This document shows positions 4,734 through 57,461 of a stretch of DNA of 64,000 nt, one piece after another. The notes below the pieces were generated by a model. It ran no database searches. It was not told where the DNA came from and saw only the letters and a list, made by a program, of their open reading frames with translations. A program made the translations under genes and the position numbers. Source of the stretch: an uncultured Atopobiaceae bacterium. GTDB lineage: Bacteria > Actinomycetota > Coriobacteriia > Coriobacteriales > Atopobiaceae. The stretch lies in NCBI GenBank assembly GCA_944322145.1, contig CALUNW010000003.1, forward strand, positions 62,001 to 126,000, given 5' to 3'. Every line of letters starts with the position of its first letter. Position 1 is the first letter of the stretch.

Positions 4734-5349
4734 AGCTCGTTGCAGCGGGGCGCACGTCGAGCGCGACGGCGTGGTCGTGCGCGACGTGGCGATGCCGGCG
4801 GAGCTCGTGCGACGCGCCCTCGAGGAGATGGAGCGCCTGGACATCTCGATGATCATCGAGAGCGCGGAGCTCAACGTCTCGCTCGACCGCGGGGAGAACT
4901 GGTTTCCGCACGTCACGACGGTCACGACCGCGCGCGAGGTCGAGGGGCTCCGTCCCGACCTGCGCTTCTCGAAGATCGTCTTCCACGACCACGAGCTCGA
5001 GAAGTACCTCTCGAGCGACTTTCTCCGGGAGACCTTCGTCCTCTACCGCCTGGGGGACGGCATGAACGAGGTCACCGTCGAGGGCATCAACAAGGGGGCT
5101 GGGCTTCTCGCCTACGTCGAGGCGCTCCCCGAGCGCCCCACACGTACCTTCGCCTTTGGCGACTCGGAGAACGACCTGCCGATGCTCGAGGCGGCAGACG
5201 TCGGCGTGGTCATGGCCAACGCGCGGCCGCACGTGATCGAGCGCGTTCGCGAGCTCGGCGGCCACGTGACGGCGGGCGTGCTCGACGACGGCGTCGCCCG
5301 CGCCCTCGAACACTTCGGACTGATTCAATTGGGGACAGACCCCTTTTGA
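4711..5349 (+). pseudogene. Broken Cof-type HAD phosphatase (N-terminal third missing)
   Basis: Recognisable Cof/HAD-IIB sequence begins at CSGAHVERDGVVVRD, which in intact relatives lies some 60-85 residues in. The conserved late motifs are present (lysine in VEGINKGAG, acidic FAFGDSENDLPMLEAADVGV), but the N-terminal DxDGT nucleophile motif is absent, so no phosphatase activity is expected. The first residues are read from the operator region. The last ones (IQLGTDPF and the stop) are read from the palindrome at 5321. Both ends are therefore rearranged. It sits next to tRNA-Lys, a common recombination site. Confidence 0.75.
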
Positions 5350-5399
5350 ATCACTTTCTTTGAAATGATTCAAAAGGGGTCTGTCCCCAATTGAATCAC
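5321..5399. repeat. Family A palindrome (GGGACAG core)
   Basis: Two 33-nt arms (5321-5353 and 5366-5398) are exact reverse complements around a 12-nt loop. Each arm holds GGGGACAGACCCC flanked by TGATTCAA-type ends. It supplies the last codons and the stop of the HAD fragment and ends 20 bp before the next gene. Confidence 0.9.
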
Positions 5400-5418
5400 G
5401 CTGAAAGGAGAGAAGCAC

Positions 5419-17299: not shown

Positions 17300-18286
17300 G
17301 TGCTCAGAGTCAGCGAGCTCACCGGCCTGCGCGTTCTCGTACACAAGAAGACGAAGACCGCCAAGGACGGCACTGTCACCGACAAGTACCAGAAGCTCGG
17401 CAAGATTCACAACGCGGTCTTCTCCCCCGACGGCAAGCGGGTGGTCGGCCTTATGGTCAAGCGCCCGGATGCCGTCGGCATGATTAAGCGCGAGGATGCC
17501 TTCCTTGCGCTTGACGCGTATCGCCGAATGGACGAGAAGACGATTCTCGTGACGCGCCCCGAGGATGGCCTGGATGCCGATGCGCGCAGACGCCTCGCCC
17601 TCGACTGGGACAGCTGCATCATCTGGTCGGGCATGGATGCCAAGACGGTTTCCGGCAAGTCGCTCGGCTATGTCTCCGACGCGGAGTTTGACGAGAAGAC
17701 CGGCGCGGTGACGCGCTTCCTTACGACCGACGGGGGCGTCGCCCACGCGCTCATCGGGTCCTTCGTCATCACGCCGGATATGGTGCGCGGCTACAGCGGC
17801 GGGTTTATGGTCGTCGATCCGGGCGACACGCCCGTCGAGCTTGACGGTGGCCTCGCCGGCGCTGCGGGTGAGGGCTATGCGCGCGCAAAGGCGAAGGGCG
17901 TCGAAGTCGGCAAGAAGGTCGGTGCCGCTGCGGGAGAGGCCGTGGACAAGGGGTCGTTCGCACTCGGCCGCGCGCTCGGCAAGGCAAAGCGCGCGATCTC
18001 GGAGGCGGCGGCGCCGGAGGACGAGCCGCCGGCGGTGCCCGAGGTCCCCGCCGCAGACGTTCGCGTGGAGAAGCCCGCGGCGCGAATTGCCGAGAAGAGC
18101 GCCGGTTCCGCGCCAGCACCGAAGGCGCGGCCCAAGACCTATGCGCCTGCCGCCAAGAAGCCGGCTCCCAAGAGGAAGCCTGCGACCACCGGCGACAAGG
18201 TCGCCCGTGCTGCCGGGAAGCAGCTCAGCTCCTTTGGCAAGATGTTCGGCTCATTCAAGGACGAGTTCGACAAGGCCAGCAAGTGA
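17300..18286 (+). CDS. PRC-barrel protein with Ala/Lys/Pro-rich tail
   Basis: This 328-residue protein has two PRC-barrel-like units: residues about 1-85 (LTGLRVLVHKK...LGKIHNAVFSPDGKRVVGLMV) and about 110-175 (GKSLGYVSDAEFDEKTGAVT). A helical Gly/Ala/Lys stretch and an Ala-Pro-Lys-rich, presumably disordered tail follow. PRC-barrels usually mediate protein or RNA contacts. It starts 9 bp after the YtxH gene. Its stop TGA is part of the family A palindrome that begins at 18283. Confidence 0.8.
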   Translation: MLRVSELTGLRVLVHKKTKTAKDGTVTDKYQKLGKIHNAVFSPDGKRVVGLMVKRPDAVGMIKREDAFLALDAYRRMDEKTILVTRPEDGLDADARRRLALDWDSCIIWSGMDAKTVSGKSLGYVSDAEFDEKTGAVTRFLTTDGGVAHALIGSFVITPDMVRGYSGGFMVVDPGDTPVELDGGLAGAAGEGYARAKAKGVEVGKKVGAAAGEAVDKGSFALGRALGKAKRAISEAAAPEDEPPAVPEVPAADVRVEKPAARIAEKSAGSAPAPKARPKTYAPAAKKPAPKRKPATTGDKVARAAGKQLSSFGKMFGSFKDEFDKASK

Positions 18287-18358
18287 CCCAAATGGGGACA
18301 GGATGAAATTGGGACATCGAGAGATGTCCCAATTTCATCCTGTCCCCATTTGGGTCAC
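18283..18358. repeat. Perfect family A palindrome containing both convergent stop codons
   Basis: Two 36-nt arms (18283-18318 and 18323-18358) are exact reverse complements around GAGA. Each contains GGGGACAG. The stop codons of the plus-strand PRC-barrel gene (18284-18286) and the minus-strand FUSC gene (18355-18357) both lie in the arm tips. It may act as a bidirectional terminator, though it lacks T tracts. Confidence 0.92.
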
Positions 18359-20379
18359 TTGCGCACCTCGTCGAGGTAGCGCGGCTTCTCCACGAGCGCG
18401 CCCTCGGCATCATCGATAGCGCGGCGCAGCTCTCCTGCTCGTTCTATGTACTGCCCCAGCACGTAGCGCAGGTCAGGCTCCGAGAGCCGCGCCACAAGCC
18501 CGCGTGCATCCGCGACTCCGGTGCCAAACCGCCGCGGGTCGCAGTTGGACTGCGCGAGCTCGATGATTCGCTCGAAGGTCCGCTGCTCCTCCGGGCGCAC
18601 CTCCCGCAGGCGCACCATGAGTTCCAGCTGCTCCAGCTCGCACATGATCTCCCACAGGAAGAACGTCGCGCGCTCCGCGGCGTTGCGGTAGCGAGCGAGC
18701 TCGGCGACCTCGGGGTCCTTCTCGCCGTCGTTGCTGAGCCCCTCGACGAAGCGGGCCGCCTGCGAGTGGACCATCTGAAAGTGCAGCAGGGTCTCGGACG
18801 AGACCACGGTGTCCACGCGACCCACGAGCGTCTCGCGCACGAGGCTCCAGTAGTGCTCGATCATGTCGAACATCTGTCGCACGTTGGCCACGAAGAGGCG
18901 TCGGTCCGAGGTGGGGCACACGAGGTGGTTGACCAGGGAGACGGTGGCAATCGCAAGCACCAGGCTCGCGAGGCGCATGCCGGTGGCATAGGAGTCGTCG
19001 ATGGAGACGCTCGCCATGGTCACGGCGTATGCCGTGGCAAAGAACGCCGAGGTGACAGACCCCGGCGTCGAGGCATAGAGCGGAGCCACGAGCACCATGC
19101 CCAGGATGGTGATGCCCACGTAGTCGAGGTTCAGCAGCGCGACGGCGTGAACGAACAGGCATCCCACCGCGGTCCCCACCATGCGCGTGCGCATGCGCCG
19201 AACGGACTCGCCCGGGAAGGGCTGTAGCAGCAGGAACGCGTGGAGCGCAAACCAATAGAGCTTCTCGACGGGGAAGAGCAGGTTGGTGGTGCAGCTCACG
19301 GCCAGGACTGCCCCGCAGCGCACCGCGAAGCGCATCTCAAAGGAGTCGAGGCTCGGCCGCTTGCGGAAGACGGCGACGCGCGCGAGGCCGCGTGGCGTGA
19401 GGCGCCAGGGCCGCTGATGCGGGTCGGCGGCGGTGCGCAGGATGAGGATGACCAGGTTGAGGTACCCCTGGAAGAAGATGCGAAAGCGGTCCTCGCGAAT
19501 CTGCGTCCGGGCGAGAAGGTCGTGGGCCTTGGGCAGGAGCGACTCGCATGCCTCGGCGGACTCGAGCCTCAGGGCGACGTTGAGCTCGTCGGTGAGGTCG
19601 GCCAGCGCGGCGAGCGCGCTGCCGTGCTCCTCGACGTGATCCTCGGTCCAGTCGGAGCTGCCCGTGAGATAGGCCGTGCGCTGTGCGAGGGTGGCGAACA
19701 TGTCCAGGAGGTCGGACACGCGCGGCGGCGCGCAGGAGTCCTCGCGCGCCGTGTAGGCCAGCTTGGCGAAGTCGCTTCGCAGCCGAAGGAGCTCGCCGCG
19801 CAGGGCTCCGTCCGTTCCCGTCCGCGCCGCCGAGCGCAGGTCGTCGGCGAGGCGTCGGACGTAGTCATGGAGCTGCTCGCGCGGCTCGTCGGCACGATGC
19901 CGCGCGATGCCGGCGACCAGCAGGCTCAGGGAGAGCAGGCTGCAGGAGGCCACGAGGACCCCGGCCTGCATCCAGAACGTCTCCACGATGGCGTATGGCC
20001 GCAGCTCAAGCCAGCAGAAGAGCATCGTGTAGGGGAAGTAGCGCCGGGGGTTGAGCTGCGATGAGCGCATGAAGACCAGGAAGAACGGCACGCAGAGGTT
20101 CACCAGCACGCTCAGGACAACGTTTGAGACGGCCACGCGCGCCGCCAGCAGCGCGAACGCGCTCACGAGGAAGAAGCGCGCGTACTGCGTGGGCGGGTTG
20201 TACTTGTGCAGCCGCGTCTCGAAGAGCGTGGTGTAGGGGGAGACGACCAGCAGGTAGTCGGAGCCAAACCCCAGCGTGACGATCCAGAGCAGCGCGATGA
20301 AGAAGAGGATCGTGGGCAGCGTGTCCACGAGCTTGTCGCGCTTGGTGTCAAGCCATATCAGCGCCTTGTCGACGTTCAT
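18355..20379 (-). CDS. FUSC-family membrane protein (YccS/aromatic-acid-exporter-like)
   Basis: This 674-residue protein has two clusters of transmembrane helices (about 20-160 and 355-490) separated and followed by long helical cytoplasmic parts, the layout of FUSC/YccS proteins. FPVEKLYWFALHAFLLLQPF and RRMRTRMVGTAVGCLFVHAV fit the conserved FUSC core. Relatives are proposed to export aromatic or other small acids; substrate unknown. GAGGAG precedes the ATG. It follows the NRAMP-like gene by 30 bp on the same strand, so it may be the last gene of that operon. Confidence 0.85.
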   Translation of the reverse strand: MNVDKALIWLDTKRDKLVDTLPTILFFIALLWIVTLGFGSDYLLVVSPYTTLFETRLHKYNPPTQYARFFLVSAFALLAARVAVSNVVLSVLVNLCVPFFLVFMRSSQLNPRRYFPYTMLFCWLELRPYAIVETFWMQAGVLVASCSLLSLSLLVAGIARHRADEPREQLHDYVRRLADDLRSAARTGTDGALRGELLRLRSDFAKLAYTAREDSCAPPRVSDLLDMFATLAQRTAYLTGSSDWTEDHVEEHGSALAALADLTDELNVALRLESAEACESLLPKAHDLLARTQIREDRFRIFFQGYLNLVILILRTAADPHQRPWRLTPRGLARVAVFRKRPSLDSFEMRFAVRCGAVLAVSCTTNLLFPVEKLYWFALHAFLLLQPFPGESVRRMRTRMVGTAVGCLFVHAVALLNLDYVGITILGMVLVAPLYASTPGSVTSAFFATAYAVTMASVSIDDSYATGMRLASLVLAIATVSLVNHLVCPTSDRRLFVANVRQMFDMIEHYWSLVRETLVGRVDTVVSSETLLHFQMVHSQAARFVEGLSNDGEKDPEVAELARYRNAAERATFFLWEIMCELEQLELMVRLREVRPEEQRTFERIIELAQSNCDPRRFGTGVADARGLVARLSEPDLRYVLGQYIERAGELRRAIDDAEGALVEKPRYLDEVRK

Positions 20380-29189: not shown

Positions 29190-29330
29190 CATTCAAAAAG
29201 GGACAGGTGCAGAACCGCAGGTAAAACCTGTCAAAAGTCAGCCACTTTTGACAGGTTTTACCTGAGGTTCTGCACCTGTCCCCTCTTGCGAGGTTTTACC
29301 TGCGGTTCTGCACCTGTCCCTTTTTGAATG
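29190..29330. repeat. Nested family A palindrome with two alternative pairings
   Basis: Arm 29190-29229 is the exact reverse complement of 29291-29330 (40 nt). In addition, 29200-29238 pairs with 29244-29282 with a single mismatch around a 5-nt loop. The same left arm therefore has two right-hand partners and can form only one hairpin at a time. GGGACAG is present in the arms. Confidence 0.9.
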
Positions 29331-30701: not shown

Positions 30702-30772
30702 CTGTGAATTGGGGACAGTCCCCAATTAGCACAAATGTTTTATGCGAATCGGGGACTGTCCCCAATTCACAG
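30702..30772. repeat. Family A double-hairpin palindrome
   Basis: The outer 22-nt ends (CTGTGAATTGGGGACAG... and complement) match exactly. Each end also forms its own small hairpin on GGGGACAGTCCCC or GGGGACTGTCCCC. The spacer contains ACAAATGTTTTATG, resembling the spacers at 37051 and 40637. It lies between the helicase stop and the methyltransferase start. Confidence 0.88.
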
Positions 30773-36361: not shown

Positions 36362-37078
36362 ATGGTGGACGCGCTGGTCATAGCCGGCTGCCTCTCGGGC
36401 GAGAAGAACGACGCGGGCATTGCGGCTCTCGTCGAAGAGCTCGCCGAGGCGGTCGATGCCGACGTAACGCTGCGCGCCCGCACGGGTGGCCGGCCTGTGG
36501 GGCAGTCGCTGCCTGAGGTGCTCGCCGGCCTGCGGAGTCGGGGCGTTCGGCGGGTGCTGGTGACAACGACGCACGTTGCGGACGGACGCCTCCAGCGCGG
36601 GGCGGCGTCGGCGGTGCGCGCGGCGGCGCCCGGCTTTGAGTCGCTGCGCCTTGCGCCGCCCCTGCTTGCAACCGAGAAGGACCTGGAGCTCGTCGCCCGC
36701 GCCCTGGATGCGGCGCTGCCCGCCCGCCCTGGTCGCGTCACGGGCCTTGCCGGGCACCGCGGCGCGGAGTGCGGGAAGGCGTTCGCCGGGCTCGAGCTCG
36801 CCCTGCGCCGTCGCGGGCGTGACGACCTGCTCGTCGACGCGCCGGACCGTCTCCCCGCTCGTCTGCGGGAGCATTCCGAGCACGCCGTCCTTCTCGGCCC
36901 GTTTCTCATGGCGCTCGGTCATCATGCCCGTCACGACGTGCTGGGCAACCTGCGCGACGAGCTCGCGCGGGGCGGCGTTCGCGTTACGACCTGGCCGCAC
37001 TCCCTCACCGAGTTGCCCGAGGTCCGTCACCTCGTCGTCTCCCACGCGCTCTGTCAGTTGGGGACAGTCCCCAACTGA
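36362..37078 (+). CDS. CbiK-like anaerobic sirohydrochlorin chelatase
   Basis: The 238 residues fit the chelatase II/CbiK family: VTTTHVADGRLQRGA near residue 75, a candidate metal His in TGLAGHRGAECG, and a second in GPFLMALGHHARHDVLGN followed by VTTWPHSLTELPEVRHLVVSH. These enzymes insert Co or Fe into sirohydrochlorin. Next to a sulfite-reductase-like protein, an iron chelatase for siroheme is a sensible inference. The start at 36362 has GGAGAG upstream. The final residues QLGTVPN and the stop are read from the family A element at 37051. Confidence 0.7.
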   Translation: MVDALVIAGCLSGEKNDAGIAALVEELAEAVDADVTLRARTGGRPVGQSLPEVLAGLRSRGVRRVLVTTTHVADGRLQRGAASAVRAAAPGFESLRLAPPLLATEKDLELVARALDAALPARPGRVTGLAGHRGAECGKAFAGLELALRRRGRDDLLVDAPDRLPARLREHSEHAVLLGPFLMALGHHARHDVLGNLRDELARGGVRVTTWPHSLTELPEVRHLVVSHALCQLGTVPN

Positions 37079-37121
37079 CAGAAAAGTTTTATGTAAATTG
37101 GGGACTGTCCCCAAATAACAG
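37051..37121. repeat. Family A double-hairpin palindrome overlapping a gene end
   Basis: Two hairpins with GGGGACAGTCCCC and GGGGACTGTCCCC cores are joined by AAAAGTTTTATG. The first encodes the last seven residues and the stop of the CbiK-like gene. The ends CTGTcAgTT and AAATAACAG are less well matched than in the copy at 30702. Confidence 0.88.
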
Positions 37122-37146
37122 ACCCGCCTGACAGAGAGGAACGCCC

Positions 37147-40636: not shown

Positions 40637-40706
40637 CTGTGAATTGGGGACAGTCCCCAACTCACATAAAAGATTTCTGCAAATTGGGGACTGTCCCCAA
40701 TTCACA
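40637..40706. repeat. Family A double-hairpin palindrome between grpE and dnaJ
   Basis: The two cores GGGGACAGTCCCC and GGGGACTGTCCCC lie between CTGTGAATT and AATTCACA ends, joined by a spacer ACATAAAAGATTTCTG that aligns with those at 30702 and 37051. Confidence 0.88.
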
Positions 40707-49705: not shown

Positions 49706-51300
49706 GCTCGGGCGAGAAGGACCACGCTGCCCAGGACCTCTCCGGCGTGCGCCGCGCCAACCCGCTCTCGGTGCCCGTCGAGGCGCTCAAGATGTCGTCG
49801 GGCCTGGTGACGCTCGCCGCGTTCATGCTCGCGCCCGACTTCTTCGGCGGCGACCTCGGCGCGCTCGCCAGGCTTGCCCTCGCTGCCGTGGCCATCTTCG
49901 CGGCCTGTCTGCTCCTGAGCCTTGCCATCTGGCGCTCCCGCACCTGGGAGCTTGTCGCCGACGGGGTCCACGTGTGCTGGGGCCTGGGCTGGGGGCCGTT
50001 CAGCCGGCGCAGCATCACCATCCCCTATGACCACATCCACACGGTCTCGATGAGCTCCACGCTGTTCGAGCGCGTCGCCGGCCTCGTGACGCTGGACCTC
50101 GACACGGGCGCCGCGGCCTCGGAGGGCGACGCGTCCAAGATCTGCGGCCTGCGCGAGGCTGAGGCGGAGGCGCTGCGGGCGGAGCTCTTCCGTCGCAGGG
50201 GAGGCGCGCCGGCGCCGGGCGAGAAGGACGCGTGCCCTGCGCCCGTCCCCGCTGAGGACCGGCCGCTCGCTGTCTTCACGCTCTCCGGCCGCGACCTGCT
50301 CCTGGCGGCTGCGTCGCAGGTGAGCGCGGGCGGCCAGGCCGTGGCGCTCGTGATACTTCTGGGCAACTGGCTCAGCAACCTCATCGAGTGGGGTGCGCTC
50401 GACCTCGAGGGCGCAGGCGACGAGCTCGTCGCCGCGGCGACCCCGGCGCTCATCCCGCTGGTGGCGGGGTTTGTGGTCGCGGCGCTCGTACTGGGCGCGA
50501 TCGTCTCGTTTGTCGTGAACCTCGTGCGCTACGGCGGCTATCGCGTGGAGCGCTACGAAGATCGTGTGGTCGTGGAGCACGGCTTGCTCGCGCGCTCCTC
50601 GCGCACGCTTGTGGAGGGTCGGGTCCAGTTCGTCGCCGTGCGCCAGGGCTTGCTCCGCCAGATCATCGGCTATGCCGAGGTCAGCGCATGGGTCGTTGCG
50701 GCGCCCGGAGAGGCGGGCGGCGAGCCCTCGGGCAGCGTGCTCCTGCACCCGTTCATCCGCACGGGCGACCTCGACGCGTTCCTCTCCGAGGTCCTGCCTG
50801 ACTACGCGGGCGTCCTGGGGCGCGCGAATCTCCGGCGCCTGGGGCCGGTCGCGCGGCGCCGCGCCGTGGTGCGCGCGGCGATCTGGTGGCCGTTCGCCGC
50901 CGCGCTCAATGTGGGCGCGCTCTGGCTCTTTGGCCTCTCGGGGCTTCTCGACAGCGCCGCGTGGTTGCTGCGGCCCCTGCTCGTGGCCGCCGCCGTACTG
51001 AGTGCGGCGCTGCTCGTCGGCCTCGTCGTCAACGCGCTGCGTGCCTGCCGTTACGCTCGCTTTGGCCACACCCGCCGCGAGCTGGTGCTGGTCACCGGCG
51101 GCCTCACGCGCCTGACCACGGTCGTGCCGCGCGCCCGCCTGCAGCGCATGGAGCTCGCCGCCAACCCCTTCCAGCGCCGAGCAGCCGTTGCGAGCCTCTC
51201 CGTGCGCACCGCCGCCGGGACCTCCGACGGCCTCGAGCTGCGCGACCTGCCCGCCGACGCCGCGGGCGAGCTCCTCGCGTGGTTCAGCCCCGCCGCGTGA
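49702..51300 (+). CDS. Multi-bPH2-domain membrane protein (YdbT-like)
   Basis: 532 residues with three bPH2 (DUF304) units, recognisable at SITIPYDHIHTVSMSSTLFE, TLVEGRVQFVAVRQGLLRQI and TTVVPRARLQRMELAANPFQ, alternating with about six transmembrane helices. It partners the preceding gene through a four-base GTGA overlap. Bacillus YdbS/YdbT are linked to bacteriocin resistance and envelope stress; here the role is unproven. Its stop TGA is part of the family A palindrome at 51297. Confidence 0.88.
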   Translation: MSSGEKDHAAQDLSGVRRANPLSVPVEALKMSSGLVTLAAFMLAPDFFGGDLGALARLALAAVAIFAACLLLSLAIWRSRTWELVADGVHVCWGLGWGPFSRRSITIPYDHIHTVSMSSTLFERVAGLVTLDLDTGAAASEGDASKICGLREAEAEALRAELFRRRGGAPAPGEKDACPAPVPAEDRPLAVFTLSGRDLLLAAASQVSAGGQAVALVILLGNWLSNLIEWGALDLEGAGDELVAAATPALIPLVAGFVVAALVLGAIVSFVVNLVRYGGYRVERYEDRVVVEHGLLARSSRTLVEGRVQFVAVRQGLLRQIIGYAEVSAWVVAAPGEAGGEPSGSVLLHPFIRTGDLDAFLSEVLPDYAGVLGRANLRRLGPVARRRAVVRAAIWWPFAAALNVGALWLFGLSGLLDSAAWLLRPLLVAAAVLSAALLVGLVVNALRACRYARFGHTRRELVLVTGGLTRLTTVVPRARLQRMELAANPFQRRAAVASLSVRTAAGTSDGLELRDLPADAAGELLAWFSPAA

Positions 51301-51331
51301 TTCAAAAGGGGACAGACCCCTTTTGAATCAC
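51297..51331. repeat. Perfect family A palindrome at the end of the bPH2 operon
   Basis: GTGATTCAAAAGGGG and its exact complement flank ACAGA. The gene's stop TGA lies within the arm. Confidence 0.92.
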
Positions 51332-51364
51332 GCGCTGGACCAGGCGAGAAGAACCTCGGCCCGA

Positions 51365-52500: not shown

Positions 52501-52540
52501 TTGCCGCGGGTCCTTCTCGCCTGGCTCGCCCCGACGCCAC

Positions 52541-52667
52541 AAACTCCCATACGTCTGTACTTTATAGGTGCGCTTAACGGGGCGAGAAGAACGGCCGATC
52601 TGTCTACCTGCGCAAACGCGAAGTCCCATTTTCATGTGCGCTCCCAAAGTACAGACGTATGGGAGTT
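52541..52667. repeat. Family B inverted repeat (TACGTCTGTACTTTA)
   Basis: The left arm starts AAACTCCCATACGTCTGTAC; the right arm 52636-52667 is close to its complement. The shared string TACGTCTGTACTTTA links it to 42179. GGCGAGAAGAAC lies in the centre. It occupies the gap between fic and dnaX. Confidence 0.82.
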
Positions 52668-52744
52668 CCGGGCGGCGGGGCCGCCGCAGGAGCGGCCGGC
52701 CGAGAAGAACCTGTGGGCGTTGGCCGCCGCGCATGCGTCGCGGG

Positions 52745-52783: not shown

Positions 52784-55126
52784 ATGGAATCGCTCTACAC
52801 CAAGTACCGCCCGCAGACCTTTGAGCAGGTCGTGGGGCAGGCCCATGTGGTCGAGACCCTCAAGCGCGCCGTGCTCGAGGGACGTACGAGCCACGCCTAC
52901 CTCTTCTGCGGCCCGCGCGGCACGGGCAAGACCACGATGGCGCGCATCCTCGCCAAGGCCCTCATGTGCGAGAGGGGCCCGGCCGCCCTTCCTGACGGCA
53001 GCTGCGAGCAGTGCCGTCTCATCGCTGCCGGCGAGCACCCCGACGTGATCGAGCTCGACGCCGCGTCGCGTACCGGCGTGGACAACGTCCGCGAGGAGAT
53101 CATCAGCCGCGTGAGCTACGCGCCTGCCATGGGCCGCTGCAAGGTCTACATCATCGACGAGGTCCACATGCTCACCACGGCGGCGTTCAACGCGCTGCTC
53201 AAGACGCTCGAGGAGCCCCCCGAGCACGTGGTCTTCATCATGTGCACGACCGACCCGCAGAAGATTCTGGCCACGATCCTCTCGCGCGTGCAGCGCTTCG
53301 ACTTCCACGCCATCGGCAACGACGAGATGCAGGCGCACCTCGCCTATGTGTGCAAGCAGGAGGGATTCTCCTACGACGAGGCGGCGCTCGAGCTCATCGT
53401 GCGCCACGCCCGCGGCGGCATGCGCGACGCGCTGACCTCGCTCGAGCAGCTCTCGGTCTTTGGCGCTGGTTCCATCGACGTTGCCGCGGCCGCGGACTTC
53501 CTCGGCGAGGTCTCCGGCTCCATCCTGGGCAAGGTGTCCCGCGCGATGGCGCACCGCGACGTCGGCGCCCTCTTCGCCGAGGTCGCCGAGCTGGCAGACG
53601 CTGGTCGCGACCTGCTGCAGTTCACCCGCGAGCTCGCGGCCCGCGTGCGCGACGTCTACGTGGTCGCCGCCGTCCCGAGCGCCGAGGACGTGGTGGCCGC
53701 GCGCGGGGACGAGCTCGACGCCCTGCGCGCCGAGGCCGCCGCGTACGGCTCTGCCGACCGTCTCTCCCGCGTGCTCACCGTCCTGGGCGACGCCTCGAGC
53801 GAGATGCGCACCGCCACCAACCAGCGACTCGTTCTCGAGATCGCCCTCACGCGCATCGCCCGCCCCGGCTCAGACCTTACGCTCGACTCCCTCGCGGAGC
53901 GCGTCGCCGACCTCGAGCGCCAGGTTGCCATCCTCGCCATCCCCGGCGCCCTCGCAAGCGCCGCCCCCATTATCGAGAAGACCCTCGAGCAGATGCCCTC
54001 ATCTCCGGTAACGCCCCAACCCGAGTCACCCTCCCACCCCCAACCCTCCCCGGAGGAGCACGTCACGGAGCCGACCGCCGAGAGGGCCGCAACCCCGTCG
54101 CCGGCCCCCGCGCCCGAGCGGCCGACGACCCCCGCACCCGAGGAGCCTCCGGTGCCGAGTGCCCCCGCCGCCGCGCCGGGCTCTCCCATCGCGAGTCGCG
54201 AAGCGAGCGACGAGCGCAGCGAGGAGCGCCGAGCGGATGGGGGAGCCCGGGGCGGCGGCGGGGGCGTCACAAACGGCAACCTCCAGCGCCTCTGGAAGCA
54301 GGTCGTCGACCGGCTCGTGGCGCAGGTGCCGGCGAAGGGGTCGCTGCTCCTCTCGTCCACGGCGGTCTCCGATGACGGCGAGAAGCTTATGGTGTCGCTG
54401 CCCAAGGGCTCGCACTTCGCCGCGCGCATGCTCGAGCGCTCCGACGTCCGAGCGAGCGTGGACCCGGTGATCGCCGCCGCCTTCGGCCCGCGTCAGGTGG
54501 TCTACGTGGAGTCGAGCCTCGCGGGCGCCAACATCGCCCGCGCCGAGCGAACGCCAGCTCCCGCTCCGGCCCCGAAGCCGGTGCCGGCGCCTGCCCCGGA
54601 GCCCCAGCCCGCGGCACCCGCGGAGCCCGAGAAGCCCGCCTACCCGATGCCCTGGGACGAGCCCGCCGCCCAGGCGGCCCCGACTCCGGTATCCGCGCCC
54701 GCCCCGGACGACGACGTCGTCCCCTACACCGACGCCGACGTAACGGTCTACGAAGAAGTCTTCGAGCCCAACCTCCCCGCCGACCCCATGCCGGCGGATG
54801 CGGGCGCGACGGCCGCCCCCTCCGGCACCGACGCTGGCGTCTTGCCCGGCGCGAGTCACGAAGTGAGCGAGGAGCGTAGCGACGAGCGCCGAGCGGCTGG
54901 GCAAGACGCCAGCGTCGGGGCCGGAGGGGGCTCCCCGGAGCTCACCCCCGAGTTCGCGAGCATCGCCTCCATGTTGGCGGAGGCGTTCGGGCAGCCGCTG
55001 TCGGTGAGCGTGGAGAGCGCGGCGACGACCTCGGACGAGGATGCGGCGGAGGAGCTCGCGATGGATGACGACGCCTCCGAGATGGGCTTTACCGACGAGC
55101 CCGTCGACGACGAGGACGACGAATAG
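52784..55126 (+). CDS. dnaX: DNA polymerase III subunit gamma/tau
   Basis: This is the clamp-loader ATPase. 780 residues: AAA+ module with GPRGTGKTTMARILAKAL (Walker A), zinc-binding Cys pattern (CERGPAALPDGSCEQCRLI), IIDEVHMLTTAAFNALLKTL (Walker B), SRVQRFDF sensor region, then domain III and a long Pro/Ala/Glu-rich tail. Two palindromic elements sit in frame in the tail (54161-54265 and 54815-54931), encoding SREASDERSEERRADG and SHEVSEERSDERRAAG. GGGAGG precedes the ATG. It is followed by ybaB and recR, a conserved order in bacteria. Confidence 0.96.
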   Translation: MESLYTKYRPQTFEQVVGQAHVVETLKRAVLEGRTSHAYLFCGPRGTGKTTMARILAKALMCERGPAALPDGSCEQCRLIAAGEHPDVIELDAASRTGVDNVREEIISRVSYAPAMGRCKVYIIDEVHMLTTAAFNALLKTLEEPPEHVVFIMCTTDPQKILATILSRVQRFDFHAIGNDEMQAHLAYVCKQEGFSYDEAALELIVRHARGGMRDALTSLEQLSVFGAGSIDVAAAADFLGEVSGSILGKVSRAMAHRDVGALFAEVAELADAGRDLLQFTRELAARVRDVYVVAAVPSAEDVVAARGDELDALRAEAAAYGSADRLSRVLTVLGDASSEMRTATNQRLVLEIALTRIARPGSDLTLDSLAERVADLERQVAILAIPGALASAAPIIEKTLEQMPSSPVTPQPESPSHPQPSPEEHVTEPTAERAATPSPAPAPERPTTPAPEEPPVPSAPAAAPGSPIASREASDERSEERRADGGARGGGGGVTNGNLQRLWKQVVDRLVAQVPAKGSLLLSSTAVSDDGEKLMVSLPKGSHFAARMLERSDVRASVDPVIAAAFGPRQVVYVESSLAGANIARAERTPAPAPAPKPVPAPAPEPQPAAPAEPEKPAYPMPWDEPAAQAAPTPVSAPAPDDDVVPYTDADVTVYEEVFEPNLPADPMPADAGATAAPSGTDAGVLPGASHEVSEERSDERRAAGQDASVGAGGGSPELTPEFASIASMLAEAFGQPLSVSVESAATTSDEDAAEELAMDDDASEMGFTDEPVDDEDDE
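54161..54265. repeat. Family D palindromic element inside dnaX, copy 1
   Basis: The 30-nt arms (54161-54190 and 54236-54265) are complementary at 28 positions. The 45-nt centre, GCGAGTCGCGAAGCGAGCGA onward, matches copy 2 at about 41 of 46 positions. The total of 105 nt keeps the reading frame. Confidence 0.9.
54815..54931. repeat. Family D palindromic element inside dnaX, copy 2
   Basis: The 33-nt arms (54815-54847 and 54899-54931) are complementary at 32 positions but share no sequence with the arms of copy 1. The centre starts GCGAGTCACGAAGTGAGCGA. The total of 117 nt keeps the frame. Confidence 0.92.
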
Positions 55127-55148
55127 GAAACGAACGAAAGGAACCGCA

Positions 55149-55484
55149 ATGGCCAGGGGATACAACATGGGCGGAATGAACCGCAACCAGATGATCGCAC
55201 AGGCGCGCAAGATGCAGGAGCAGCTCATCGCCGTGCAGCAGAAGGTCGCCTCGACCGAGGTGTCGGCGAGCGCGGGCGGCGGCGCCGTGAAGGTCACCGC
55301 CACGGGCGGCATGCGCCTGACCTCGCTCACCATCGACCCCGAGACCCTCGATCCCGAGGACGTGGAGATGCTGCAGGACATGATCCTCGCCGCCGTCAAC
55401 GACGCGCTCGAGTCCGCCGAGCAGATGGCGAGCCAGCAGATGGGCTCCGTTACCGGTGGCCTCAACATCCCGGGACTCTTCTAG
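55149..55484 (+). CDS. YbaB/EbfC nucleoid-associated protein
   Basis: 111 residues with the family core: MIAQARKMQEQLIAVQQKVA helix, GGGAVKVTATGGMRLTSLTI sheet region, and ESAEQMASQQMGSVTGGLNI at the C terminus. It is a dimeric DNA-binding protein encoded between dnaX and recR in most bacteria. AAAGGAACC lies five or so bases ahead of the ATG. Confidence 0.93.
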   Translation: MARGYNMGGMNRNQMIAQARKMQEQLIAVQQKVASTEVSASAGGGAVKVTATGGMRLTSLTIDPETLDPEDVEMLQDMILAAVNDALESAEQMASQQMGSVTGGLNIPGLF

Positions 55485-57153: not shown

Positions 57154-57197
57154 CATGCCGCGGCACGCCCGCGCGCAAACCCCTAGTACGCGACCCC

Positions 57198-57364
57198 GCC
57201 GCCCGCGCCCGCAAACCCCCTGGTGCCTGATTCCTCTCAAATGCGTGAAATGGTGCCGGATTAGCGAGAAATGCGTGTCTAGAACACGCATATGGCGGAA
57301 ATCAGGCACCTTTTCACGCATATTGTGGGAATCAGGCACCAGGGGGTTTGCGGGCGCGGGCGGC
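57198..57364. repeat. Large family C palindrome
   Basis: The outer 37 nt (57198-57234 and 57328-57364) are exact reverse complements. Pairing continues inward with few mismatches to GTGTCTAGAACAC at the centre. GGCACCTTTT, ACGCATAT, GGGAAT and GGCACC recur from the element at 9393. Confidence 0.92.
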
Positions 57365-57461
57365 GCGCTGCCGCTGTTCGCCCCTTGCCGAGTCCTTACG
57401 ACCCAATTGCGCATATCGAGGTATCATATTCTCGTATGATTCGTGCAACGACGGGGGCCCC

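Follow-up and report, generated by a model that had tools for sequence, protein, structure and literature searches.

Palindromic elements with a conserved centre and variable arms in dnaX and at other loci of Coriobacteriales

The dnaX gene (DNA polymerase III gamma/tau) in the 64-kb window, the whole stretch of DNA analysed here, contains two palindromes that share a centre and differ in their arms. The locus raises the question of how such a centre can stay constant while the sequence on either side of it does not, and of which of the two is the unit that spreads. The gene runs from an ATG to a stop codon in a frame that is open across both palindromes, and it scored above the NCBIfam cut-offs for NF004046 gamma/tau (457.2 bits, cut-off 400) and TIGR02397 (403.8, cut-off 250) with positions 52793-55123 of the frame as input. 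Both elements lie in its C-terminal half (54161-54265 and 54815-54931) and encode, in frame, the near-identical peptides ASREASDERSEERRA and ASHEVSEERSDERRA, as the original prediction had it. That prediction also gave arm lengths of 30 and 33 nt, of which the first was correct, but the second arm measures 36 nt (Table 1).

Table 1. Coordinates of dnaX and of the parts of its two palindromic elements (positions in the window).
Feature	Positions	Strand	Basis
dnaX (DNA polymerase III gamma/tau), host of both elements	52784..55126	+	reading frame and NCBIfam
Copy 1 left arm	54161..54190	+	inverted repeat, 93% complementary to 54236-54265
Copy 1 centre, 45 nt	54191..54235	+	sequence; structure and covariation
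Copy 1 centre, GCGA+N	54191-54195	+	
Copy 1 hairpin H2, TCGC-GAA-GCGA	54196-54206	+	
Copy 1 hairpin H3, GCGACGAGC-GCA-GCGAGGAGC	54207-54227	+	
Copy 1 linker	54228-54229	+	
Copy 1 N'+GAGC; unpaired purine	54230-54234; 54235	+	
Copy 1 right arm, 30 nt	54236..54265	+	inverted-repeat search
Copy 2 left arm	54815..54850	+	inverted repeat, 94% complementary to 54896-54931
Copy 2 centre, 45 nt	54851..54895	+	sequence; structure and covariation
Copy 2 centre, GCGA+N	54851-54855	+	
Copy 2 hairpin H2, TCAC-GAA-GTGA	54856-54866	+	
Copy 2 hairpin H3, GCGAGGAGC-GTA-GCGACGAGC	54867-54887	+	
Copy 2 linker	54888-54889	+	
Copy 2 N'+GAGC; unpaired purine	54890-54894; 54895	+	
Copy 2 right arm, 36 nt	54896..54931	+	inverted-repeat search

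The two palindromes with their shared centre are real features of dnaX, as judged from the inverted repeats and from a 37-nt centre pattern with exactly two matches in the window, against none across 100 dinucleotide shuffles, with up to three mismatches allowed. When treated as single-stranded DNA, the whole elements folded far better than shuffles on both the + strand (z = -7.33 and -10.52) and the - strand (z = -5.65 and -9.48). The centres alone folded no better than shuffles (z = 0.35 and 1.10 on the + strand, -0.20 and 0.70 on the - strand) under standard DNA folding parameters, which give no credit to tandem G.A pairs or GNA loops; the strong folding of the whole elements is therefore due to the arms.

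Palindromes of other kinds were also present in the window. An inverted repeat with 36-nt arms (52528-52563 and 52646-52681, 89%, 82 nt apart) and a different kind of centre lies directly upstream of dnaX, and an 82-nt inverted repeat with a 5-nt loop (57197-57278 and 57284-57365) is 85% complementary. Palindromes with tight loops of 1-6 nt were found at 5314-5405, 18267-18374, 29194-29288, 30702-30772, 37050-37122, 40638-40706, and 51294-51334, several of them based on AATTGGGGACAGTCCCCAATT-like or TGATTCAAAAGGGG-like sequence.

The dnaX elements belong to a dispersed family with the predicted properties: the arms vary around a fixed centre, and there are in-frame copies encoding near-identical peptides. 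A third copy of the pattern, bringing the total for this genome to three, was found in the tail of the gene just before one that we take to be tatC; this gene (tatB below) is TatA/B-like, with every score below the NCBIfam cut-offs. Among 100 relatives, the pattern matched in 25 (24 of the 31 genomes of the genus and one genome of another genus), and a backward-read control pattern matched in none. Olsenella and Thermophilibacter are among the named records that carry the pattern. At E<=0.1 a covariance model, R1, matched in 27 of the 31 genus genomes, with six matches in this genome, and the possibility that no other copy exists anywhere, which had been named at the outset as a ground for refutation, is thus excluded. 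Across the order, model R2 matched in 74 of 297 genomes at E<=0.01, where about 3 were expected by chance; many of its matches outside the family were single and weak, and three genomes of the order had at least 15 matches each, 15 being the maximum scored for any one genome. In a sample of the phylum, 8 of 396 genomes matched R2 at E<=0.001, all of them in this order, the Coriobacteriales. A loose 18-nt half-centre pattern was uninformative in this genome (75 matches against 52 for its backward control), and viral contigs gave no match to two centre patterns. Loci were drawn from search matches and many contigs end near elements; all counts are lower bounds from an uneven sample. Contigs end near an element, or within dnaX between or next to its two sites, in G009:C13, G015:C50, G010:C12, G024:C48, G019:C4, G028:C38, and G014:C30, and short-read assemblies therefore probably undercount copies. 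The tatB centre of G023 is replaced by NN.

Read in the direction of dnaX, the centre begins with GC-GA-N, continues with T-C-R-C (GAA) G-Y-G-A (hairpin H2) and GC-GA-S-GA-GC (GNA) GC-GA-S'-GA-GC (hairpin H3) followed by GY, and ends with N'-GA-GC and a single unpaired purine. Covariation was assessed in 30 collected elements, each comprising the centre and 20 bp of arm on each side. Paired cells amounted to 93.4%, compared with 76.7 +/- 0.8 for shuffled and 34-49% for slid alignments, double-changed cells numbered 155 versus 51 in shuffles, and the structure score was 0.427 versus 0.132, a value reached by 0 of 500 shuffles. The S/S' pair of H3 was complementary in 29 of the 30 elements, N/N' in 26, and R/Y in 25; over 95 elements, the junction pair N/N' was GC in 33, AT in 22, CG in 21, GT in 9, and other in 10. 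The GA/GA junction positions remain non-Watson-Crick (no variation in columns 21-23 and 61-64, and A24 in at least 90%), and inner G.A pairs were changed to G-C pairs in loci L034 and L037. This pattern of change shows that the centre has a conserved, covarying one-strand structure. The putative three-way junction of the centre rests on covariation rather than on computed energy, given that the centres alone show nothing special in computed folding of either strand. The accessible text of PMC6582339 describes GCGAAGC as a DNA hairpin of extraordinary stability that contains a sheared G.A pair.

Genomes with many copies indicate what is shared between loci. In G200, nine elements were recognised in 11 fetched loci, on nine contigs, and eight of them share an identical 38-nt centre, or tip. 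Over the ten stem positions adjoining the tip, identity between copies was 0.64-0.80, compared with 0.32-0.27 past position 20 (random, 0.26); pairing was 0.87 for an element's own arms and 0.53 for crossed arms, and three of the nine elements had short or interrupted matching beside the tip. For the 13 elements of G275, pairing was 0.96 with own arms and 0.40 with the arms of others. Identity at arm positions 21-40 was 0.32-0.27 in G200 and 0.33-0.26 in G275, compared with a random level of 0.26-0.28. The sequence shared between loci is the tip of 38-45 nt, together with about 10 bp of adjoining stem in G200, and the outer arms are locus-specific in both genomes. The dispersing unit thus looks like the tip, not the palindrome, given that eight of nine G200 centres are identical and that their outer arms agree no better than random sequence. 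In G056, the centres of 13 elements were 0.93 alike, some copies share whole arms (crossed pairing up to 1.00), and copies also lie in tandem pairs or arrays, which indicates that whole palindromes duplicate too. Arrays of the form arm-tip-arm'-spacer-tip-arm' were seen in L290, L283, and L282 (G056, G200), with a period of 88 in L290, and are like BIME dimers.

Centres and arms also part company in the gap after leuC (LEU2 667.6, NCBIfam cut-off 610.65). By eye, the gap contains the centre type studied here in G027, G015, G003, G005, G006, G010, and G009, and a GCGAGTT...CTRTNTGAGC-like type in G023, G016, G028, and G001 and, with changes, in G011. This second type (L193-L222) is a single hairpin, a cousin of the studied type, which several species have at the identical palindromic position. 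In G000 and G018 the arms persist around a short loop in place of the centre. On the pcrA tree both fall within a clade that also contains G006 and G010, and their centre-free arms are a derived state there. Relatives with both arms and no centre had been named in advance as evidence against an inserted element; such arms do occur at leuC, but as a derived rather than an ancestral state. Palindromic arms can persist through the loss or exchange of their centre.

We consider it rather likely that these elements form a dispersed, non-autonomous family of palindromic DNA in Coriobacteriales, with arms kept up by template switching at the replication fork and a tip conserved for its fold. The nascent strand at the fork would fold back and copy the other arm, and repeated template switching of this kind would rewrite the arms as a pair and invert the spacer. 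Template switching both homogenises arms and inverts spacers, according to the portion available of PMC8604942, and makes and keeps stems, according to that of PMC8794818. The tip would be conserved because its one-strand fold is recognised, or primes fold-back, during copying to new places; this fold is predicted to be a three-way junction built from mini-hairpins that have GNA tips and tandem G.A pairs. Tentatively, and with distinctly less confidence, we also entertain a 40-nt single-stranded selfish tip that spreads without a stem, a new palindrome being made from the sequence of the target by primed fold-back of the flank; the tip would then be the genetic element, and the stem a by-product continually rewritten by it. 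That a transposon of the REP or MITE type moves the whole palindrome, with arms diverging by template switching and their variability reflecting age, seems unlikely: the shared arms of G056, the pairs and arrays reminiscent of BIMEs and REPINs, and the variation of centre subtypes between genomes would all fit, but the identical G200 centres between random outer arms would require full turnover of the arms before any change in the centre, and the elements have neither a terminal tag nor a constant end.

Further evidence on fork template switching came from a pcrA-like helicase gene (861.6 bits, below the NCBIfam cut-off of 911.2), in whose linker the element lies. As labelled by eye in 30 genus genomes, the centre at this site is sense in 11, antisense in 18, and absent in one (G021); among the sense genomes, G024 looks recombinant and G027 retains one half. 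An automatic search recognised the centre in 27 of the 30. The 29 labelled rows imply at least eight orientation changes, spanning two centre types, on a gene tree of 1170 columns with the insert excluded, which is a quick tree with 8 of 27 inner branches weak. The 21-nt centre of G013 and G008 is identical at 21/21 positions after inversion and at 12/24 in direct comparison, and the flanking arms match directly (22/24 and 20/24). For the 39-nt centre type, identity was 31-32/39 inverted versus 21/42 direct, with 17-20/24 flank matches in four pairs and poorer agreement in G005/G015. The tip was found inverted between similar arms. Both orientations of the centre are open in frame at this gene, and the centre also lies antisense to leuC. 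The orientation changes may in part reflect recombination between species.

The arms also vary at single sites. At the first dnaX site, read by eye in 27 genus genomes, nine genomes contain a clear element (G000, G006, G009, G010, G012, G014, G016, G018, and G022), two a degenerate one (G001 and G020), four a decayed right half (G011, G013, G027, and G028), and 11 none (G002, G003, G004, G005, G019, G021, G023, G024, G025, G026, and G029); the site is disrupted in G008, where locus L151 is low-complexity, AT-rich sequence with in-frame stops, which may reflect an assembly fault or a genuine disruption. The arms differ among G000/G006/G010, G018, G022, G009/G016, G012, and G014, with each copy palindromic, and the arms at tatB likewise vary between species in copies that are each palindromic. 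Arms were poorly paired in L036, L043, L048 (second copy), L051, and L060 and imperfectly paired in L042, L044, L050, and L062; L051 looks recombinant, with a break within the centre. At one locus, then, arms differ between species yet are mostly complementary, with no G.U preference. We assessed this preference in 95 deduplicated elements (112 before collapsing) selected for at least 15/18 inner pairs, a selection that affects the paired fraction while leaving the G.T/A.C ratio unbiased. In 2614 arm cells, mismatches comprised 42 G.T and 40 A.C; the 25 dnaX/tatB elements contributed 8 G.T and 15 A.C, and the other 70, of mixed orientation, 34 G.T and 25 A.C. Arm length was 19-44 bp in 87 of the 95 elements, and the outer arm ends showed no constant sequence, with identity and information at background.

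Selection on RNA should leave more G.U than A.C intermediates on the transcribed strand. Given the lack of G.U preference and the presence of the centre in both orientations, the upkeep of the arms has the symmetry of DNA, which points to template switching at the DNA level and not to RNA selection. We accordingly find it quite improbable, in spite of the strong double changes in the structure and the several copies in the gaps after leuC or before the gene for the product starting MLTKRVIPCLDV, that the elements act as transcript hairpins (a terminator, mRNA stabiliser, or processing site) with arms kept by RNA selection. In addition to the G.T/A.C balance and the antisense copies at the pcrA-like gene (18 of 30 genomes) and leuC, by which this reading is disfavoured, the opposite strand has TC/TC where this one has the G.A pairs, copies occur in mid-ORF, and no Rfam family scored above threshold in positions 53900-55200 (best, 23.5 bits; gathering threshold, 142). 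A purely mutational origin, in which long palindromes arise anywhere by template switching and the GA-rich centre results from convergence or from spread by ordinary gene conversion, with no mobile unit, appears no less doubtful than transcript hairpins. Arm homogenisation and spacer inversion are the known signatures of template switching, and different centre types do occupy the same place at leuC; however, many loci carry near-identical centres of 38-45 nt whose non-Watson-Crick G.A positions coincide, and homogenisation alone cannot explain such a tip, since the G.A mismatches would then be repaired.

In the genus, elements were found at two sites in dnaX, in tatB, in the pcrA-like linker, in the gap after leuC, and in the leader of the MLTKRVIPCLDV gene, presumably hisF. 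The pcrA-like gene and the DNA ahead of the MLTKRVIPCLDV gene hold elements in other genera as well, and the dnaX gene of G045, of another genus, holds two; this recurrence suggests that the sites are either old or hot spots. Frames are open through the copies in dnaX, tatB, and the pcrA-like gene, barring disrupted or truncated cases, and a frame reads through 6 of the 56 elements listed from other genera, three of the six being pcrA-like. Given these few read-through cases and the occurrence of the centre in both orientations, fusion to protein is incidental. The dnaX, tatB, and pcrA-like elements are read as old, in-frame, and probably near-neutral passengers of disordered segments. The motif SxERSyER contains one D and one E in 29 of the 30 collected elements, with D/E swaps that are base-pair-complementary, and the encoded peptides are best explained as following base pairing, not the reverse. 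Selection for the charged peptide SREASDERSEERRA in tau, TatB, and the PcrA-like protein would account for the open frames but is disfavoured and very improbable, with no through-reading frame in 50 of the 56 copies from other genera, the opposite strand (ALASLARQGDSP-type) read by the pcrA-like gene in 18 of 30 genomes, and base-pair-complementary D/E swaps in 29 of 30 elements. In the dnaX tail of G033 (L178), three in-frame PECRPERSAAGAESKDL copies represent a different repeat (GTCCTGAGCGGAGCGCCGCAGGCGCGGAGTCGAAGGAC) with a TGAGC...CGA-type hairpin.

The dnaX copies do not look recent: of the 27 genus genomes, 11 have the first site filled and another four have it half-decayed, and dnaX of G045 likewise carries two. 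The tatB gene is without an element in G013, G007, G019, G021, and G026. Because the sites are filled so widely, element-free tatB and dnaX sites are read as losses rather than pre-insertion states, although they could be either. The vacant alleles at the second dnaX site (G004/G025) and at tatB (G013/G014) were considered as pre-insertion states and dropped, polarity not being assignable. Relative to G013, the tatB element of G014 is flanked by a GCCGC direct repeat, which in this one case, seen by eye, could be a target-site duplication or equally a deletion scar. The predicted ORF stops inside the element in 3 of 63 listed elements, none of which identifies the native arm, and individual examination of L281, L284, L286, and L287 for the native arm was of no help. 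Comparison of G275 with G045 yielded no clean empty site, the intergenic DNA not being alignable by eye. Conserved blocks between L275 and G045 end near elements (query positions 722, 2140, 5656, 8572, and 8981), as if these were favoured breakpoints.

Judged by titles and abstract openings, nothing listed by searches of open-access literature resembled a description of this family. In Rickettsia palindromic elements (RPEs), the sequence of the whole element, including the stem, is conserved between copies; the stem sequence of the elements described here is not, with positions 21-40 near random. The original prediction had likened the dnaX copies to RPEs, which the accessible text of PMC10969869 describes as short palindromes inserted in frame in unrelated ORFs with a conserved encoded peptide. 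That likeness stands for the in-frame position in unrelated genes (dnaX at two sites, tatB, and the pcrA-like gene) and for the conserved peptide, but by the features compared these are not RPEs: beyond the stem, the CGTC at one end given as an RPE feature in the part of PMC3733652 available has no counterpart here, as judged from end constancy in general. The elements also differ in that only 6 of 56 from other genera read through, and they belong to a different phylum.

REP, REPIN, and BIME sequences are presented in the available text of PMC3116915 as short dispersed palindromes in pairs or arrays, with a predicted single-stranded hairpin and compensatory hairpin changes. The present elements are likewise short, dispersed, and found in pairs and arrays, and they share the predicted single-stranded hairpin and the compensatory changes. 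REPINs, however, have constant ends and a variable middle, whereas here the middle is constant and the ends are variable. GTAG/CGTC REP families have stems of 5-13 bp, according to the accessible section of PMC3733652; here 87 of 95 arms are 19-44 bp with locus-specific outer parts and no constant end tag. Unlike MITEs, the elements lack conserved terminal inverted repeats, the outer arms being unrelated in G200 and G275 and shared by some copies in G056. Double-hairpin elements of organelle genomes are mobile hairpins.

By process, as far as their accessible descriptions go, template-switch palindromes and the Nematomorpha coding palindromes come closest among known systems. With the former, the elements share homogenised arms without G.U bias (42 G.T versus 40 A.C) and, as in the cases described in the available text of PMC8604942, inversion of the spacer in place within coding DNA, here in the pcrA-like gene. 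The inverted spacers reported there carried 2-5 substitutions; unlike in those cases, a spacer of 38-45 nt is here common to different, unrelated loci (eight identical centres on eight G200 contigs). Nematomorpha mitochondria contain long near-perfect inverted repeats inside genes, with arms actively kept identical, as stated in the accessible portion of PMC6649704. Those arms encode conserved residues and that portion mentions no shared centre, whereas the present elements lie in segments of low conservation and have one. The elements offer a natural bacterial system, partly within protein genes, where comparison between species makes arm homogenisation and spacer inversion visible. Even strong compensatory covariation does not have to imply a selected RNA, and the comparison of G.U with A.C tells the two cases apart. 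The usual architecture of mobile palindromes is here turned inside out, with a constant middle and variable ends.
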